The notes under the pieces: model-generated
What the model was told of the DNA's origin: nothing
The model's input: only the letters and a program-made list of their open reading frames with translations
The model's database searches: none
Made by a program: the position numbers and the translations under genes
Shown here: in pieces, positions 44,263 to 52,241 of the stretch
How the letters are laid out: the number at the start of each line of letters is the position of its first letter
How positions within the stretch are numbered: the stretch's first letter is position 1
Source of the DNA: Fibrobacter sp. UWR2
GTDB lineage: Bacteria > Fibrobacterota > Fibrobacteria > Fibrobacterales > Fibrobacteraceae
Length of the DNA: 64,000 bases
Reading direction: 5' to 3'
Assembly (NCBI RefSeq): GCF_002210285.1
Contig: NZ_MWQE01000003.1
Span: forward strand, 124,001 to 188,000

Positions 44263-44373
44263 AAACGGTTCGGTAGCCACAAAAATTGCCGAAATTCGCC
44301 TAAAAAAGCCAAAATTTCTTAAATAATGGTTACGAAATTGGTTACTTGGGTAAACGCGAAAGTACATTTATTT

Positions 44374-44409
44374 TTGCATTTCTCAGATTGATACTGCTAT
44401 CTTATAGGT
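44374..44409 (+). promoter_or_regulatory. Promoter of the TIGR02147 gene, leaderless type
   Basis: TTGCAT (-35, 44374-44379), 18-bp spacer, TATCTT (-10, 44398-44403), six bases, ATG 44410. Both promoter boxes are recognisable here, making this the best-supported leaderless case. Confidence 0.6.
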
Positions 44410-45258
44410 ATGGACAACGGAGAGAAAAAAATATTAACCGAACCGGATGTGCTGCAGTACACCAACTTCAGGGTGTACCTTCGCGACTACTACGAGTACA
44501 AGAAGCATACGCAGCCCTCCTTCAGTTTGCGGTTCTTTGCCGAGAAGGCGGGGCTTTCTAGCCACGCCCACTTGAAGCTTACTATCGACGGCAAGCGCAA
44601 CATCACGAAGGGGACCGTGCTCAAGATCATCCAGGGTCTCGGTCTCGAAAAGCAGAGGGCCGCCTATTTTGAAAGCCTCGTGTTCTTCAACCAGGCTCAG
44701 AACGACACCGAAAAGCAGGTCTACTACGCGCAGTTGCTCAAGGCAAGCCCGCGTTCCAAGCTGCACAAGATGGACAAGGCCCAGTTCCGCATCTTCAGGG
44801 AATGGCACCATTCCGTGATTCTCGAGATGGTGGGCCTCAAGGGCTTCAAGCCCATTCCCGACCTGGTCAGCAAGCGCCTTCGCGGTCTGGTGACGCCGTC
44901 TCAGGTCACCGAATCCTTGGAACTTCTGCTGGAAACGGGCCTTCTGGTGAAAACCGCCAACGGATACCGCCAGCGTGACCCGCTCCTTACCACCGACGAC
45001 GAGGTGCAGGACATGATGGTCAAGCTCTATCACCAGCAGATGCTGCGCATTTCGAGCAACATGCTGAGCTCCCTCCCGAGTGCGGAACGCGATGTATCTG
45101 CACTAACGTTCAGTATTAAGCGCGAAGATTTCCCCAATTTGAAGAAACATATCCAACTCATGCGCAAGGAACTACTAGATTTCTCTGCAAAGCCCGGCGA
45201 GGGTGATGATGTGGTGCAGGTGAATATACAGCTGTTCCCGCTGACTCGAGGAGTGTGA
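44410..45258 (+). CDS. TIGR02147 (DUF4423-type) family regulator-like protein
   Basis: 282 residues, cytoplasmic. Matches the Fibrobacter TIGR02147 family: NFRVYLRDYYEYKKHTQPSF near the N-terminus, FSLRFFAEKAGLSSHAHLKL with a helix-turn-helix-like segment (about 37-70, KGTVLKIIQGLGL), and the C-terminal FSIKREDFPNLKKHIQLMRK region (about 236-255). The family is probably regulatory. Its stop overlaps the start of a CBM lipoprotein gene (TGATG), implying they act as a pair. Confidence 0.8.
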   Translation: MDNGEKKILTEPDVLQYTNFRVYLRDYYEYKKHTQPSFSLRFFAEKAGLSSHAHLKLTIDGKRNITKGTVLKIIQGLGLEKQRAAYFESLVFFNQAQNDTEKQVYYAQLLKASPRSKLHKMDKAQFRIFREWHHSVILEMVGLKGFKPIPDLVSKRLRGLVTPSQVTESLELLLETGLLVKTANGYRQRDPLLTTDDEVQDMMVKLYHQQMLRISSNMLSSLPSAERDVSALTFSIKREDFPNLKKHIQLMRKELLDFSAKPGEGDDVVQVNIQLFPLTRGV

Positions 45259-46520
45259 TGCGGTTTAATGGGTTCTTAGCGTGCTCCGTGCTAGCGGTGT
45301 CTTTCTTTATCGGATGTTCTTCCGGTGGAGGTTCGGAACCTCTTTCTGGAATTGAGATAGGAAACCCCGCGCTCGCGCTGACAGCTGACTTCTCGGTAGA
45401 CTATGCCGAGGTTGTTCCTGGTTCGCTCCGCAAGCAGGCCAAGGACGAAGAACCGGTGTTGCTTGATTCATTTGCAATGGAACTGGTCGAAGTCCGCTCG
45501 TATTCAAGTTACTATGTGGCCGTCTCCAACGATATCAAGGAGAAGGGCCGCCCGGTCTGGCCTAGCGAAGACGTTCCCGAGTCCCAGCTGCCGATTTCGT
45601 TCACGGAAGGTACCTCGGTCGACGAGCCGTTCAAGTCCATCAACCTCGACGACGATGGATACCTGAAGGAAATTGGCGTGTCGTTCCAGCCCGAGGGGCC
45701 GAACTCGGTTATCCGTGGCCGCGTGCTGCTCGATGGTGAGTACGTCCCGTTTGAATACGACCTCAACGGGTTCCAGCGGGTCGGTATGCGCTACCACCTC
45801 TCGCAGATTGACTTGTCATCCGACAGTGTTGCTAATTTGTCTGTAGCGTTCCACGTGCGTTGCTTTACCGAAGGGGTAGACTTCTCCAAGGCGGAAGTCT
45901 CCGATGACGGAATCATCCACCTGGACAATGCGAATAATATTACACTGTGGCAGGCCTTGAACAAGAACTTCGTTCCGAGTTTCCGCCCGCTGCGTTACAG
46001 CTATACGGATGCCCAGGGCATGGCTGTTGAAGACTTCGTGAAGGATATTTGGGATGGCGTGATTGGCGCGATGAGCGATAACACCATTCGGAATGGAGAC
46101 TTCTCTAACGGCCTGGACTATTGGATATTCTTCACGCAGTTGCGCGGTGTCGCTACGGCTACGGTCCTTAACGAAAAGGGCGGCCACGTTCTCAAGATTG
46201 ATGTGACTAACGGTGGCAGCAATTCGTATAGTGTACAGCTGATTCAAGAAGACGTGGCCCTTGTCGCCGGCAAAAAGTACAAGTGCGTGTTTACCATCTG
46301 GTCGAATGTCGAAGGTCAGATTACCGCCCGTATTGGCACGTACGATGACTACGAGACGGTGGGCTTCATGGAACACCCGATTGTGAAGACTTCGGGCCAC
46401 TCGTTCGAGAAGGAATTTACCCCGAGCGAGAGCACGCCGTTTGCAAGGTTCGAACTGAACCTCGGCAAAAAGGAACGTACGTTCTACATCAAGGACATTA
46501 AAATCTACCGCTTAGAGTAG
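45258..46520 (+). CDS. Lipoprotein with C-terminal CBM4/9-type carbohydrate-binding module
   Basis: 420 residues. Lipobox FFIGC (Cys21) is followed by a Ser/Gly linker. Residues 25-270 form an unrecognised beta-rich domain. Residues 278-420 read as a CBM4/9-like jelly roll: IRNGDFSNGLDYWIFF, VLKIDVTNGGSNSYSVQL, KYKCVFTIWSNVEGQ, ARFELNLGKKERTFYIKDIK. It is probably exposed at the cell surface and binds polysaccharide. ATG 45258 overlaps the TIGR02147 stop; a GTG at 45255 is the alternative. It is convergent with the diguanylate cyclase, with no clear terminator in the 20 bp between. Confidence 0.8.
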   Translation: MRFNGFLACSVLAVSFFIGCSSGGGSEPLSGIEIGNPALALTADFSVDYAEVVPGSLRKQAKDEEPVLLDSFAMELVEVRSYSSYYVAVSNDIKEKGRPVWPSEDVPESQLPISFTEGTSVDEPFKSINLDDDGYLKEIGVSFQPEGPNSVIRGRVLLDGEYVPFEYDLNGFQRVGMRYHLSQIDLSSDSVANLSVAFHVRCFTEGVDFSKAEVSDDGIIHLDNANNITLWQALNKNFVPSFRPLRYSYTDAQGMAVEDFVKDIWDGVIGAMSDNTIRNGDFSNGLDYWIFFTQLRGVATATVLNEKGGHVLKIDVTNGGSNSYSVQLIQEDVALVAGKKYKCVFTIWSNVEGQITARIGTYDDYETVGFMEHPIVKTSGHSFEKEFTPSESTPFARFELNLGKKERTFYIKDIKIYRLE

Positions 46521-46540: not shown

Positions 46541-47425
46541 CTACCCGAAGGCGACGCGATTGCGACCGCCTTCTTTCGCTATATAGAGCAGCCTGTCGGA
46601 TTCGGCAATCATCTCTTCGATCTTCGGAATTTCTTCGCCCTGCTTGGTGCAAAGCCCGAGCGAAATCGTCACCGGGATAATGGTATCCTTCCACGAGAAG
46701 CGGTGCTTCTCGATGGCGGCGCGCAGGCGTTCTGCGCTCTTGCGGGCGTCTTCGGGCCCGATGCCCGCGAGCAGCAATAAAAATTCTTCGCCGCCGTAGC
46801 GGGCGAGCAGGTCGCATTCGCGCTTTTCTTCGTTCAGTATGCGGGCGATTTCCTTTAGCACCATGTCGCCGCACTGGTGTCCCCAGGTGTCGTTCACGTG
46901 CTTAAAGTGGTCTGCGTCCACCATGATGGTGTGGACAAAGTAGTTGTTCCGGCGGGCGAGAGCGAGCTCACCGAGGCTCCTGTCAAAAAAGTTCCTGCGG
47001 TTGCTAATCTTGGTGAGCGGGTCGATGGTCGCCGCCTCGTACAGCGCGCGGTCAAAAGCCTCTTCGCTCTTGTCCTTGAATTCGACCTTCATCACCATCT
47101 TGCCGAGTTGCAGGCGGTTGTCCGAGTCGAGCACGGTACGGGTGACGGGCTGCCCGTCTACGAACGTGCCGTTGGTGCTCCCCAGGTCTTCTACCGTCAC
47201 GTTGATGCCGTCGAATGTCAGGGTGCAGTGCTTTCGGCTCACGAGTTCATCGTCGAGCCTGATGTCGGCATCCTGACCGCGGCCGAGGGTAACCGTCCCC
47301 TTTTCGAGGGCGATCTGCTTGAACTGCGTTTGCGGGTACAGGATAATCAGGTGCGGCCTCAGTTCGATCTTTTCGAACTTGATGGTCTTGCCCGGGGTGA
47401 CGATGGTCTGGTCGAGGTCCTGCAT
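46541..47425 (-). CDS. FHA-domain diguanylate cyclase (GGDEF)
   Basis: 294 residues, cytoplasmic. FHA domain at about 25-115: TLGRGQDADIRL, SRKHCTLTF, DLGSTNGTFVDGQ, the phosphothreonine-binding pattern GR...SxxH...NGT. GGDEF domain at about 130-294: DPLTKISNRRNFFDR, the RYGGEEF active site and an intact I-site RECD seven residues before it, so product inhibition by c-di-GMP is likely. It makes c-di-GMP, probably under Ser/Thr-kinase control through the FHA domain. GGAG precedes the ATG; TACATT lies about 25 bases upstream. Confidence 0.92.
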   Translation of the reverse strand: MQDLDQTIVTPGKTIKFEKIELRPHLIILYPQTQFKQIALEKGTVTLGRGQDADIRLDDELVSRKHCTLTFDGINVTVEDLGSTNGTFVDGQPVTRTVLDSDNRLQLGKMVMKVEFKDKSEEAFDRALYEAATIDPLTKISNRRNFFDRSLGELALARRNNYFVHTIMVDADHFKHVNDTWGHQCGDMVLKEIARILNEEKRECDLLARYGGEEFLLLLAGIGPEDARKSAERLRAAIEKHRFSWKDTIIPVTISLGLCTKQGEEIPKIEEMIAESDRLLYIAKEGGRNRVAFG

Positions 47426-47714
47426 AGTGGCTCCGTTGTTGTTTTAAAATGTAGTAAAAGACCTCCTCTTGTGATGACTTCCGGCCCGTTTTTACAGGCT
47501 TGTAAATTTTGAGTAACAAAGCGGATGCCGTTTTTTGTGATTTTTCACACGGGAACTAGTTAATTCACTTTTTGTTTACAAAAAAAACCGGGATTTAGGC
47601 AAAAAAAAAGAAAAATTATTGGCTTTTTGGCAAATAAAAGAATAAATTTGAGGACGGTGTGGCATATAAAAAAGCCGGTCTTTTTGGTATGCTTAGTTGG
47701 AAGGAAAACCATTG
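47426..47714 (+). promoter_or_regulatory. AT-rich upstream region of the fibro-slime gene
   Basis: About 290 bp with no gene. It holds repeated A and T tracts (around 47579-47587, 47602-47617, 47631-47645, 47668-47674), which may bend DNA or act as UP elements. TATGCT at about 47687 is a weak -10 candidate, and GGAAGGAA (about 47699-47706) is a strong ribosome-binding site for the ATG at 47715. No -35 box is convincing. Confidence 0.4.
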
Positions 47715-50700
47715 ATGGAAACAAAAACGATGAAAAACACAAAGAACAGCTTGTGGAAGTGGGTGTTGAGCGCCTCTCTCCTGTTGATGGCTGCCCAGAG
47801 TGCGTGGTCTGCATGTACGGGTACATTGCACTTCAAGAAGCCCGATGACTGGCCGACTGCATTTTTCGTGGCCATGAACAACATCCCTGATCAAGCTGGC
47901 AGTAAGGGTGGAATTGCGGCTACAAGATATAATGCCGCAACGGGTTTTTATGACTATGACTTGTCCTTGGCAGGTCCTGAAGCTCAGGAAACAATGTTCG
48001 CCCTGCAGACCCTTGCGGAAACATCGGCAGCGAAGCCGATGCATTACATTCTCTCTAGCGTGTGGGATGGTTCTGCCGCCTACGACCCGAACGTAGCGAA
48101 GAATGGCCGTGACATCGCCTGCCCGTCGGTGAAGGGCGCTACGGATGTCTGGGTGATGGAACACCCCAAGAAACCGGGTACGACGCTTGTCCAATACACC
48201 AAGCCCAATATCAAGTATTTCTACGTGCTCGTTCCCGATAACGCGGAATGGAAGGGCACCGTGCCGATGTATTCTCCGGATGGTACCTATGCCAGCCGTA
48301 AGGAAATGAGGGCCGACCCCAATATGTGTGGTTGGTACTATGTCGTGTGGCTCGACGAAACCCTGCCGGACAACTTGATCATCCTTACGGATGGTGACGA
48401 GGAACTGGACGAGGCTATCGGCCTTGATGGTGCCGATGCGGATGCGCTGACGCCGTTCCCGATGCAGACGTTCTTCGATGCCTTCCCGGATGCCGACAAG
48501 ATTTATTTTGTTGCCGATTTCGACGAACTTGACGATCCTTCCACCAAGGGTATCTTTACGACGGACCCGGGCATTGAAGGAACCTGCTCCTACAAGCTGG
48601 CCGCAATCCTTTATGATACCGATGCCTCCATGCATGGAGCCTTTACCTGTGACGCTTACCCCAATGTGGCTTCCAATAAGTGCTATTCTGCAACTGCCAA
48701 GTATAATTACCCCGGCAATGGACAAGACAACACTGTGCCCTGCATTGGCGTAACCACGGGAATCGTCAATTCCATCCTGGATACGGCTACCAGAAAGCCT
48801 GTCTACAATGCGGCTAGCGGATGCTTTGTCAGCCAGGAAGCTTTCGATGTCATGTTCAAGGAAACTCCGGGTATTAACTCCCAGCACTGTCGCGACGTGG
48901 TGTTCAAGCTCGCGAAGGACGGCCTGTGGGAATACGATAGCTATAACGAACCGACCGGAGCCTTTACTATCCTGAACGACCTTGCGGACTCTGTAAGACT
49001 CGGTACCTGCGCAGGTGATTGTAAGACAGCCGCTACGCTGCGTGAAGGCCTCGGTAACGTGAGGTATGGTATCGGTGAACAAGGGCAAACACCTACTCAA
49101 AATGGAATTTCACAGAAGGCTCAGACGCTCTTTCCTGGTGTTTCTGACTGGTCAGCCATTGAACCGACAACCGGCTTGCCATACATCGACCTCTATCCGG
49201 TCTCTGATAAAGAATTTGGCGATGGTAAGCATCCTAACGTTTACGACAACTCTACCTGGGATGCCCGTATCAAGGGCGATAACAACCAGATGTTCTGCTT
49301 TGAGTCCCACGCCAAGTTCACCTACCGCAACGGCATGCAGTTCTCGTTCCGTGGCGACGATGACATTTGGGTGTTTATCGACTACAAACTGGCCGTGGAC
49401 CTCGGTGGTACCCACCTTGCCGCTCCGGGCTATGTCAAGCTCGATACCCTTAACGGCCTGCATGGCAAACTGGTGCCGGGCCAGGATTACAACATCGATA
49501 TCTTCTTCTGTGACCGCCGTACCGACATGAGTAACGTGCGTATCAAGACGAACATGTACATCAAGCAGGCTACCGGTATCCAGCTCGAAACGACCCCTGT
49601 GTCTAGCGGTTTGCAGTTGGGCATTTGCGTGCTCAAGACTGGCGCCGGTGACTGTGCCTCCGTCGCTCTCGGTACCGCTGGCGGTGGCCAGGAAACGACC
49701 CAGGAATGTGGCGATGCTATCTCGACGAACGTCAATTACTCTATCGTGACCAAGAAGGGTGGCTTGAACCCGACGGGCTGCAGCGACTGTGCCGCACTCC
49801 CGCTCGGAGGCATTGTCCATGGTGGTATCAACCTCACCAACCCGAAGGTCCCGATTATCGATGTGGACAAGATTACCGGACTTGCTCCGGGTACCTACTA
49901 TCTGAAGATTACGGTTGACGGCAAGACGGAACCGTTCAAGTTCAAGGTTAAGGGTAACCTCGGCCTTGTCACCAAGGATGTCACGTTTGACAACGTTGAC
50001 GGTGAAATCGGCCTCAAGTATGATTCTGGTACGCAGTGGAAGTTTGTCGGCGAGTCCCTTGCCGGTAAGCGCATCCCGATTTACATCTCCGCTCCGGATG
50101 AATACGGTGGAGTGGATATCATTTCCGCCAAGGGCCAGGCCTACGAACTCAAGCTGTCGGCGGGTGCAACCCTCTACAAGACGCAGGACGGCACCGAGCC
50201 TCTCACGATCCCGTACACCGGCAGGGTGAACGACGACGGTATCGATACCTTCTGGGTCGATGTCCCGCTGGCCGGCCTCACGGCCTCCCCGACAGAGATT
50301 ACCGCCACGGTTGGCCCGACCAGCGCTACGCTCAAGTTCTATGCCCCGCGCCTCGTGTTTGCTAACCCGGATTCTACCGATGCTGCAGGCAATGTGATTA
50401 CCTGGTCGCCGATTAATCCTCCTGCCGACCCGAATGTCGACGAAAACGGCGAAGAATACTTCCACTGGGTGAGCGCTGATGTCGACTTCTACCTGCTGGT
50501 CGTAGACCCGTCTACAAACGAGATCTGTAAGGAATGCTACTACGCTCTTGACTTCGTTGGCAATTCTACTTCTACGGGTATCGTCGGTTCCGGACAGTAC
50601 ACATATGCTGACGGCACTACAAAGGACGGTAACCCGGTTATCGGATTCAACGAGGGCGTGTACCTTATCCGTATCCGTTCGAACCAGGAATACGCGACCG

Positions 50701-52241
50701 AGGCGGCGAGCATGGTCATCGGTTCTCCGGACTGCCCGCTCATCAGTTCGCCCTATACCAACATGCACTTCTACAAGCCGCCTGCACCGATGCCGCTCAT
50801 TGTCGACATGTTCGACGTGAAGGGCGAGCCGCTTGGCGAAATGAACATTCCGACCGACTTCCATATTGAATCTGCTGAGTACCTGGATGGTAAGGCCGAC
50901 TCCATGGCTATTATCTATGACCGTGCGTTCCATCCGGACTCTATCCCGACTTACATCTGCTTGAAGTTCGAAGACGACAGGAGCAGGCAGAAGAAGATCA
51001 ATCCGTACGAAATGGGCATTTCCAACAACAAGAAGGATACGGAAATGTGGTGCTCCACGCAGTTCGATTCTACTGCTATCCGCGTCGCATACACCAAGAG
51101 CCCGGATAATGGCCGTACACTTGCGTTCGCCATCGATTCCACCTTCACGGCCGACGTGAAGACCTTGGTGAACCCCGAAGACAAGATTGCCTCGTTCACG
51201 GTTTACAAGTGGAAGGGCAAGGAAGCCAAGACCTTCTTCGAGAAGGGCCTTACCGACCGCATGGCTCCGATTATCATCTCGGCCCGTGCAACGAACGAAG
51301 GCGATGGCGGCATGTTTGACCAGGTGAAGATCGAAGTTTCTGAACCGGTCGTGGTTACCGATGCGTCTAAGGGTAAGGAGGCATTCTCCTACTACCTGAA
51401 CTCCGCAATCGATATCGCTGACCCGCTGCAGCGCTACATCCACGTGAAGTCTCAGGCTAGCCCGCAGGACCGTAGTGCTACGCTGACCCTGCGTTACAAC
51501 AACTCTGACCCGAACAGCCCGACTCCGCACGTGGGCGACTACATCCGCTTCCGTGCCGACACGTTCATGTGGACCGATACCCTGAACGGTGCTGCTGCCG
51601 GTGCCGATACGCTGCGTCAGCCTACGGATGCCGACTGGCACTGGAACTCTCCGACGAACTACAATTCGACGGACCGCCTGCCGTCTCCGTGGGTACAAGT
51701 CGTGGGTGACGCCAAGATTGCCGTTACGACAATCAGCTACAACTACGCCGACCCGAGTTCTGTGAACGATACCACTCCTGTGGGCAATGTTATCCCGATC
51801 AAGACGAGCGACAACATCGACTTCGTCAAGGAAAACTACCCGGGTACGCTTGGCCACTTCGTGCAGTCCGACATGGGCTCCATCATTGGGTCCAAGGAAG
51901 AATATGCCACGGTCAACAAGGGTGATGTCAAGTTCTACTACTCTGTCGATTACTACACGAACCTCGGTGCGTTTGTTGCCCACCAGGGCGGCTCGATCGC
52001 CTGTACCGATTCGTTCTTCTCCTCTGACCCGTCGCAGAACCTGCCGGGTGACTGCGTCAAGAACCCGCGTAACTTCTACATCTCCTGGAACATGGTTTCC
52101 GAGAACCACCGTCTGGTGGGTACCGGTGCCTACATCACCAAGTTCACGTCTTACGTGAAGCTTGGCGACAAGGGCAAGAGAGCCAAGAAGGAACTGACCG
52201 AAGTCTGGGGCGTGAAGCGCGGCAAGGGTAAGGTGAAGTAA
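47715..52241 (+). CDS. Giant fibro-slime domain surface protein
   Basis: 1508 residues from ATG 47715, which has GGAAGGA upstream; a TTG at 47697 in frame is less likely. Signal peptide with an n-region of basic residues and hydrophobic core ending AAQSAWS before ACTG. Residues 455-615 form the fibro-slime domain (YDNSTWDARIKGDNNQMFCF, FSFRGDDDIWVFIDYKLAVD, GLHGKLVPGQDYNIDIFFCD), related to PA14-type carbohydrate-binding folds. Beta-rich domains follow, and the end is basic (VWGVKRGKGKVK). F. succinogenes fibro-slime proteins are associated with the outer membrane and cellulose binding. Monocistronic, with its own terminator. Confidence 0.88.
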   Translation: METKTMKNTKNSLWKWVLSASLLLMAAQSAWSACTGTLHFKKPDDWPTAFFVAMNNIPDQAGSKGGIAATRYNAATGFYDYDLSLAGPEAQETMFALQTLAETSAAKPMHYILSSVWDGSAAYDPNVAKNGRDIACPSVKGATDVWVMEHPKKPGTTLVQYTKPNIKYFYVLVPDNAEWKGTVPMYSPDGTYASRKEMRADPNMCGWYYVVWLDETLPDNLIILTDGDEELDEAIGLDGADADALTPFPMQTFFDAFPDADKIYFVADFDELDDPSTKGIFTTDPGIEGTCSYKLAAILYDTDASMHGAFTCDAYPNVASNKCYSATAKYNYPGNGQDNTVPCIGVTTGIVNSILDTATRKPVYNAASGCFVSQEAFDVMFKETPGINSQHCRDVVFKLAKDGLWEYDSYNEPTGAFTILNDLADSVRLGTCAGDCKTAATLREGLGNVRYGIGEQGQTPTQNGISQKAQTLFPGVSDWSAIEPTTGLPYIDLYPVSDKEFGDGKHPNVYDNSTWDARIKGDNNQMFCFESHAKFTYRNGMQFSFRGDDDIWVFIDYKLAVDLGGTHLAAPGYVKLDTLNGLHGKLVPGQDYNIDIFFCDRRTDMSNVRIKTNMYIKQATGIQLETTPVSSGLQLGICVLKTGAGDCASVALGTAGGGQETTQECGDAISTNVNYSIVTKKGGLNPTGCSDCAALPLGGIVHGGINLTNPKVPIIDVDKITGLAPGTYYLKITVDGKTEPFKFKVKGNLGLVTKDVTFDNVDGEIGLKYDSGTQWKFVGESLAGKRIPIYISAPDEYGGVDIISAKGQAYELKLSAGATLYKTQDGTEPLTIPYTGRVNDDGIDTFWVDVPLAGLTASPTEITATVGPTSATLKFYAPRLVFANPDSTDAAGNVITWSPINPPADPNVDENGEEYFHWVSADVDFYLLVVDPSTNEICKECYYALDFVGNSTSTGIVGSGQYTYADGTTKDGNPVIGFNEGVYLIRIRSNQEYATEAASMVIGSPDCPLISSPYTNMHFYKPPAPMPLIVDMFDVKGEPLGEMNIPTDFHIESAEYLDGKADSMAIIYDRAFHPDSIPTYICLKFEDDRSRQKKINPYEMGISNNKKDTEMWCSTQFDSTAIRVAYTKSPDNGRTLAFAIDSTFTADVKTLVNPEDKIASFTVYKWKGKEAKTFFEKGLTDRMAPIIISARATNEGDGGMFDQVKIEVSEPVVVTDASKGKEAFSYYLNSAIDIADPLQRYIHVKSQASPQDRSATLTLRYNNSDPNSPTPHVGDYIRFRADTFMWTDTLNGAAAGADTLRQPTDADWHWNSPTNYNSTDRLPSPWVQVVGDAKIAVTTISYNYADPSSVNDTTPVGNVIPIKTSDNIDFVKENYPGTLGHFVQSDMGSIIGSKEEYATVNKGDVKFYYSVDYYTNLGAFVAHQGGSIACTDSFFSSDPSQNLPGDCVKNPRNFYISWNMVSENHRLVGTGAYITKFTSYVKLGDKGKRAKKELTEVWGVKRGKGKVK

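Follow-up and report, generated by a model that had tools for sequence, protein, structure and literature searches.

This analysis concerns two overlapping genes of Fibrobacter sp. UWR2 in a stretch of 64,000 nucleotides (nt) of contig NZ_MWQE01000003.1 (positions 124,001 to 188,000), which we call the window and which forms part of contig C3 of a 3.28-Mb genome. The first gene encodes a regulator of the TIGR02147/DUF4423 family, and the second a predicted lipoprotein with a family 4 carbohydrate-binding module (CBM). The palindrome upstream of this pair is also found, at the same distance from a promoter-like hexamer, in front of several cellulase genes of glycoside hydrolase families 5 and 9 (GH5 and GH9), and nearly all TIGR02147 genes in the genome are followed by a gene for an exported protein. 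The features of the locus, in window coordinates, are as follows.

44340..44355 (+): palindrome GGTTAC-TTGG-GTAAAC, the putative operator, centred 62.5 nt upstream of the ATG, with 50 nt from its centre to the -10 hexamer
44398..44403 (+): -10-like hexamer TATCTT, by sequence, 6 nt from the ATG (TATCTT or TATTTT in orthologues)
44410..45258 (+): TIGR02147/DUF4423 regulator, 282 amino acids (aa), ATG at 44410 and stop TGA at 45256-45258
44458..44748 (+): Cro/XRE-like helix-turn-helix (HTH) domain of the regulator, residues 17-113, predicted by AlphaFold2 model and VIA-align 2
44755..45015 (+): winged-helix-like domain of the regulator, residues 116-202, by VIA-align 2 comparison with ArsR-type regulators
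45248..45253 (+): Shine-Dalgarno-like GAGGAG for the lipoprotein, by sequence, within the last codons of the regulator gene
45258..46520 (+): lipoprotein, 420 aa, ATG at 45258, with full-length orthologues in the genus
45258..45317 (+): predicted lipoprotein signal peptide and lipobox Cys20, by sequence, the hydrophobic N-terminus ending in FFIGC
45348..45368 (+): post-signal tag GIEIGNP, residues 31-37, by sequence and orthologues
45453..46067 (+): beta-rich middle domain, residues 66-270, in the AlphaFold2 model
46080..46466 (+): CBM4 (CBM_4_9) module, residues 275-403, by Pfam and structure comparison

An earlier reading made from the sequence alone (the sequence-only reading) had the stop of the regulator gene overlapping the start of the lipoprotein gene, and this is borne out: the two share 1 nt, in TGATG. 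An in-frame GTG at 45255 is an alternative start for the lipoprotein, giving a 4-nt overlap. The arrangement is present in all 30 genus loci examined, that is, the best 30 regulator matches, our own included; the gap is -1 or -4 in 29 of them and +1, by the chosen start, in L153. Among 80 genomes of the genus, the regulator occurs in 74 (own included; best matches elsewhere 72-97% identical), and full-length lipoprotein orthologues likewise occur in 74, being 45-84% identical in the other genus genomes. Any match to the lipoprotein can be found in 78, four of which (G007, G045, G056, and G057) have the CBM alone, and both full-length genes are missing together in six. The regulator is also present in 14 of 16 genomes from other genera of the family.

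The hexamer lies only 6 nt before the ATG; therefore, the mRNA is probably leaderless. All 30 genus loci have a palindrome of the form G[GT]T[TA][AT]C-N4-GTA[AT]AC placed 62-63 nt before the ATG, and all 30 have a TANNNT hexamer 50 nt from its centre. In the loci from other genera (13 readable of 14, L474 being the one left out), the palindrome recurs at no more than one mismatch and at most 110 nt upstream in 11, and with two mismatches in L476 and L484. Of the 31 TIGR02147 paralogues of our genome, 22 have a TANNNT hexamer at a distance of 3-13 nt upstream of the start codon, versus 596 of 6283 background ATGs. At up to one mismatch, the window promoter alone has the palindrome among the 31 regulator promoters. 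A second clade of regulators, recognizable by MNVYAYYNYRK, has TGTTCYC repeats instead (16 of the 17 loci have at least two), and among the 31 promoters these repeats are confined to that clade. Its promoters at L002 and L034-L053 possess two or three copies, one of them about 35 nt before the ATG. Such clade-specific promoter elements are the pattern that autoregulation would leave.

The sequence GKTTACNNNNGTAAAC occurs at exactly two sites in the genome, the window promoter and C6:82949-82964, the latter between a divergent GH5 cellulase gene (with a lipobox-like signal) and a CBM30 gene. By family, size, and neighbourhood, these two genes may be Fisuc_1523/FSU_2005 and Fisuc_1525/FSU_2007 of strain S85. 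In S85, that GH5 is reported as detected only on cellulose and that CBM30 protein on all substrates (PMC4619616). Upstream of CBM30 (up to 500 nt), in 75 of the 76 genomes with this gene (G013 being cut off by a contig edge, and G002 and G006 each represented by one of two copies), the palindrome is exact in 17 and within one mismatch in 49, counts that come from related genomes and are not independent. In the controls, 375 shuffles gave no exact match and 2 within one mismatch, and 646 windows of 520 nt from our own genome gave the same counts. On the GH5 side, a TANNNT hexamer lies 49-51 nt from the palindrome centre in 48 of the 49 sequences with the site (the exception being G011), compared with just 12 of 54 on the CBM30 side. 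Behind the CBM30 gene in L472 (3368-10378) there are three large open reading frames (ORFs; 848, 759, and 716 aa), the first with a signal-peptide-like start, for which Pfam gave no match at E 0.001.

Beyond this site, the palindrome precedes two more GH5 and two GH9 genes of the genome with the same geometry. A genome scan at no more than one mismatch yielded 19 places, 15 of which were examined as loci; sites with the same spacing stand before GH5 genes in L356 and L366, and another stands before a GH9 gene in L357, where a better site, with the spacing, lies 60 nt from the ATG. A separate set of stretches, taken regardless of the palindrome, contains five GH5/GH9-like genes: the GH9 genes of L076 and L086 have palindrome and spacing, the GH9 gene of L089 has the palindrome at two mismatches, and none was found at the GH9 gene of L492 or the GH5-like gene of L096. 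In other genomes, a second GH5 group has the palindrome with its geometry in eight of nine loci (none in L391). When 12 further loci of this group were used as a test, four had it within one mismatch and eight within two, our own genome's being at two, against a background of one other such match in about 23 kb (one strand).

The pairing itself extends well beyond the window. Our genome has 31 TIGR02147 genes, and 30 of them are followed on the same strand by a lipoprotein-type protein with a gap of -26 to +22 nt. Under a common rule (a gap no longer than 40 nt, a product of 90 aa or more, and a hydrophobic N-terminus), there is a partner for these 30 versus 46 of 260 background genes, and under a strict lipobox criterion scored by a single program, for 28 of 31 versus 15 of 260. 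The sequence-only reading had staked its proposal on TIGR02147 genes being linked to exported proteins, which they are here. The sole gene without a partner, L012 (G000 C10:52957-53772), converges on the lipoprotein of pair L026, and the partner in a metagenome-assembled genome of Fibrobacter succinogenes (L196) closely matches this same L026 partner. Elsewhere in the Fibrobacterota, the hydrophobic-N-terminus rule pairs 11 of 13 genes in G113 (another genus) and 21 of 25 in G099 (another family). In Bdellovibrio bacteriovorus kdesi, it pairs 7 of 13, a count made without L311-L313 (pieces of split matches) and with one of 14 genes missing. A pattern scan of 80 of 120 stretches, biased to regulators with one C-terminal motif, gave 54 paired loci of 79 (L246 was dropped at an edge). 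Judged by record title, 43 of these loci lie outside the Fibrobacterota, 21 paired and 22 without a partner, the titles being Bdellovibrionota names or merely "proteobacterium" or "bacterium". The sequence-only reading had called the family characteristic of Fibrobacter. It is not confined to that genus: it is present in 140 of 150 genomes and 38 of 40 genera sampled from the phylum, as well as in records with Bdellovibrionota and other names.

The payloads of the 30 own-genome partners differ widely. Above the Pfam cut-off there are Fib_succ_major in nine, CarboxypepD_reg in four, laminin-G-like domains in three, a pectate-lyase domain in one, and CBM4 in one, and nine partners match no Pfam family at E 0.05. 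We considered whether a CBM unites the pairs and rejected this, since the single partner with one is the window's. The polysaccharide role proposed by the sequence-only reading finds no general support in CBM pairing, and is strengthened for the window copy by the palindrome common to GH5 and GH9 promoters. Two tandem clusters (G000 C1:83261-90626 and C3:58477-65176; L064 and L067) contain three TIGR02147-lipoprotein pairs each, and all six partners have Fib_succ_major domains.

What recurs among the partners is a tag shortly after the lipidated Cys. Many have it as AG-[G/T]-x-[ST]-E-x-x-N-x-x-A, and the window's lipoprotein as GIEIGNP. A first strict expression found it in 17 of 30 partners versus 2 of 52 background lipobox candidates. 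At 4 bits or more, a profile built from 26 own-genome tags, the window's excluded, finds the tag in 8 of the 11 G113 partners, 10 of 21 in G099, 20 of 54 in the pattern scan, and none of the seven in B. bacteriovorus; in the background, it matches 1 of 267 N-termini, the 43 lipobox-bearing ones giving no match. Scored with this profile, the GIEIGNP of the window reaches 1.1 bits, and its kinship rests on GNP-type tags elsewhere: a GNP/GNG expression, composed after inspecting the 21 paired non-Fibrobacterota loci, finds such a tag in 18 of them versus 6 of 267 background N-termini. Some tagged partners (L189, L206, L226, and L243) have no lipobox and carry the tag behind a signal peptide; lipidation is therefore not essential to it. 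Four B. bacteriovorus partners (L300, L301, L307, and L308) show GN- or RNGG-like stretches soon after the signal peptide, followed by a Cys, and these stretches are possibly the Bdellovibrio version of the tag.

Within the genus, GIEIGNP is present in all 30 loci, and its columns are invariant in the 29-sequence alignment, as is the lipobox Cys20. In 17 loci, the mean frequency of the commonest residue is 1.0 for the tag, 0.61 for the signal peptide (residues 1-19), 0.42 for the residues after the Cys, and 0.67-0.77 for the rest. The readable loci from other genera have G[IV]E[IV]GNP in 12 and GTEIGNP in L486. Enterococcal-style pheromones are ligands derived from signal peptides, and we tried this model on the pair and rejected it: the signal peptide varies among orthologues in which the tag is invariant, and its similarity is unrelated to that of the regulator (Spearman -0.056).

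The regulator is a clear member of its family, scoring 332.2 bits against TIGR02147 (cut-off 50; positions 2-271 of the 272 in the profile) and 124.2 bits against Pfam DUF4423 (PF14394; cut-off 30). Its AlphaFold2 model has a mean predicted local distance difference test (pLDDT) score of 89.9. With VIA-align 2, the HTH domain resembles HigA, DdrO, C.AhdI, and 434 Cro at middling Z-scores of 6.5-8.4, and the winged-helix-like domain resembles ArsR-type regulators, also at middling scores (2oqg_C, Z 8.4; 4ggg_A, Z 8.1). The HTH has a weak profile match to XRE-type chains, e.g., C.BclI (E 0.11), and Foldseek returned no significant match for the model (best E 0.25). A Cro-like HTH followed by a winged helix suggests that the regulator binds DNA. 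The Pfam scan found no sugar-binding domain in it, and a plasmid search with the regulator of L055 gave no match.

A CBM4/9-like module had also been read into the lipoprotein, correctly, as CBM_4_9 scores 42.8 bits against a Pfam cut-off of 25.9. The modelled C-terminal module superposes on the CBM4 structure 1gui_A (Z 20.9, root-mean-square deviation 1.3 Å, 138 residues), and its best Foldseek match is 3k4z_A (E 1.5e-11). CBM4 modules bind beta-glucan or xylan chains, and this one is predicted to bind glucan. The whole model has a mean pLDDT of 72, with residues 1-63 below 50 and the CBM at 275-418. No fold was assigned to the middle domain, and matches in the PDB are almost confined to residues 273-420. 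The lipobox and signal peptide were scored by an in-house rule, not by SignalP. The CBM would place the protein on the outer face of the outer membrane.

We propose that the pair represents a widespread two-gene module, consisting of a cytoplasmic HTH/winged-helix regulator and a translationally coupled, exported, usually lipidated, and tagged protein. As a dimer, the regulator would bind G[GT]TT[AT]C-N4-G[TA]AA[AC]C, whose centre would lie about 61 nt ahead of the transcription start, where class I activators usually sit. From there it would activate its own operon together with several GH5/GH9 cellulase genes. The lipoprotein made along with it would display its CBM4 module, and a single switch would raise both a glucan-binding surface protein and the cellulases. 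Before or after export, the lipoprotein may also feed back on its own regulator, as suggested by a tag that is conserved and specific to the regulator clade; the rarity of the tag in other lipoproteins, together with this clade specificity, would point to recognition by the regulator before export. The sequences themselves establish the pairing, the overlap, the conservation of the tag, the conservation and geometry of the palindrome, and its association with cellulase genes. Binding, activation, surface location, and feedback are the steps that we infer, and we regard the proposal that the regulator activates its own operon and the cellulase genes, paired with a glucan-binding lipoprotein, as evenly balanced between right and wrong.

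An alternative to the feedback step is that the tag serves export or surface sorting by a general envelope machinery and is unconnected with the regulator. Like sorting signals, the tag follows the lipidated Cys or, in partners without a lipobox, the signal peptide; it is in a region modelled with low confidence, and its co-variation with the regulator across clades is weak. Over 62 pairs from three genomes, the Spearman coefficient is 0.125, or 0.112 with payload similarity removed, a value reached in 12 of 300 permutations. Among payload-unlike pairs, median tag similarity is 0.198 where the regulators are at least 40% identical (86 comparisons) versus 0.159 (738), though these comparisons are not independent. 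Against sorting, the background counts given above indicate that other lipoproteins manage without the tag; it is also near-invariant inside regulator clades and different between them. The explanation falls only a little short of an even chance, and we consider sorting no less likely than recognition by the regulator.

The activation step faces a different objection, namely, that another transcription factor reads the palindrome, with the pair as one operon among others in a cellulase regulon that is governed elsewhere, and that the TIGR02147 protein acts on different targets. Several observations weigh against our proposal here. The GH5 site with its spacing is kept in 4 of the 6 regulator-less genomes versus 50 of the 69 with the regulator (Fisher p = 1), so that presence of the regulator does not predict it; of the six, only G045 is nearly complete (99%), and it is among the four that keep the site. 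Conversely, 19 regulator-bearing genomes have no GH5 site at the proper spacing. A rule fixed beforehand gave one match in 400 kb of new DNA, and this was not at a cellulase; by a six-query search, that DNA has one GH9 gene, without a site, and no GH5. Across the whole genome, the first pattern at no more than one mismatch has 13 matches per strand versus 10 and 11 when reversed. In the 1.07 Mb examined, four of five exact degenerate sites have the geometry (the window promoter, one GH5, and two GH9 genes), a figure that is partly circular because the consensus was widened after variants had been seen, two GH9 sites having initially been counted as one-mismatch matches. It is the placement of the palindrome before cellulases that stands out, not its genome-wide number. 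Our literature search found no binding, expression, or localisation data on the pair; it returned nothing on TIGR02147, PF14394, or Fsuc_second beyond DUF4423 as a table entry, and nothing on such a promoter element, and in PMC6851124 the word "regulon" appears just in the title of a cited work, with most subscription journals outside the coverage of the search.

What speaks for the TIGR02147 protein rather than an outside factor is that the palindrome is a constant part of the regulator's own promoter in the genus and in most loci of other genera, and that, among the four genes with exact sites and the geometry, the window's is the sole regulator. In addition, the second clade has its own distinct TGTTCYC repeats, which would follow from each regulator binding its own promoter. 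We give an outside factor real weight while considering it somewhat less likely than not.

The wider claim is that TIGR02147 proteins belong, with the tagged proteins encoded beside them, to a cross-phylum class of one-component systems coupled to export. In such a system, the regulator would read the tag of its own co-translated pre-protein, and export or retention of the surface protein would set the regulator's activity. The class would have multiplied about thirty-fold in this lineage, with the window copy as a member of the cellulase regulon. Taken as a whole, this is unlikely, and we offer it as speculation. That the two genes are only co-transcribed, neither regulating nor sensing for the other, would fit the very diverse payloads and the fact that short gene overlaps are ordinary in bacterial operons, but it is highly improbable given that exported tagged partners accompany the family in our genome, and again in Bdellovibrionota records, far above background.

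Two neighbours of the pair should be mentioned. An FHA-GGDEF diguanylate cyclase gene (46541-47425, minus strand) is convergent with it, so that the operon probably ends at 46520. Two genes 3' of the pair lies a gene for a Fibro-slime (TIGR02148/PA14) protein of about 1500 aa (47697-52241, plus strand).

The F. succinogenes S85 genome paper describes the transcriptional control of cellulases as unanswered and reports only a handful of regulators near cellulase genes (PMC3079729). A palindrome at fixed spacing, common to GH5 and GH9 genes and one regulator promoter, makes this question directly testable. For a family with no assigned function and 31 copies in one genome, the survey also supplies a regular partner and a short tag, the latter present again in Bdellovibrionota records. 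With about 30 copies of the regulator-lipoprotein unit in a cellulose-degrading gut bacterium, the window copy points to a possible control of cellulose digestion.

Among known systems, the nearest description is that of the TIGR02147 and DUF4423 (PF14394) models themselves, which carry no function; new here are the tagged exported partner and, for the window member, the promoter palindrome and the cellulase genes. One-component HTH activators have autoregulated operons and class I promoter geometry. Like them, the pair has a palindrome in its own promoter and in those of its presumed targets, about 61 nt ahead of the inferred start; it differs in its two DNA-binding-like domains (Cro-like HTH and winged helix) and its regular exported partner gene. 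RRNPP regulators combine an XRE HTH with a tetratricopeptide-repeat (TPR) peptide-binding domain; the HTH modelled here is XRE-like, and the structure matches cover residues 17-218 and say little about the rest of the chain. CelR of Thermomonospora fusca is a cellulase regulator with a palindromic operator upstream of several cellulase genes, a likeness that the window pair has although its regulator belongs to a different protein family. In the Bacteroidota, surface glycan-binding lipoproteins come with associated regulators, and the window's lipoprotein is similar in having a CBM-like module tied to glycan degradation, its Foldseek matches including surface glycan-binding protein B of B. thetaiotaomicron. 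Its partner, unlike theirs, is a cytoplasmic TIGR02147 regulator, and the Pfam scan of the pair found only DUF4423 and CBM_4_9, with no sigma, anti-sigma, or two-component domain, which likewise sets it apart from surface signalling by extracytoplasmic function (ECF) sigma and anti-sigma factors. The Bacteroidota lipoprotein export signal is an acidic stretch directly after the lipidated Cys; the tag described here is rich in G, T, E, and N and differs between regulator clades.

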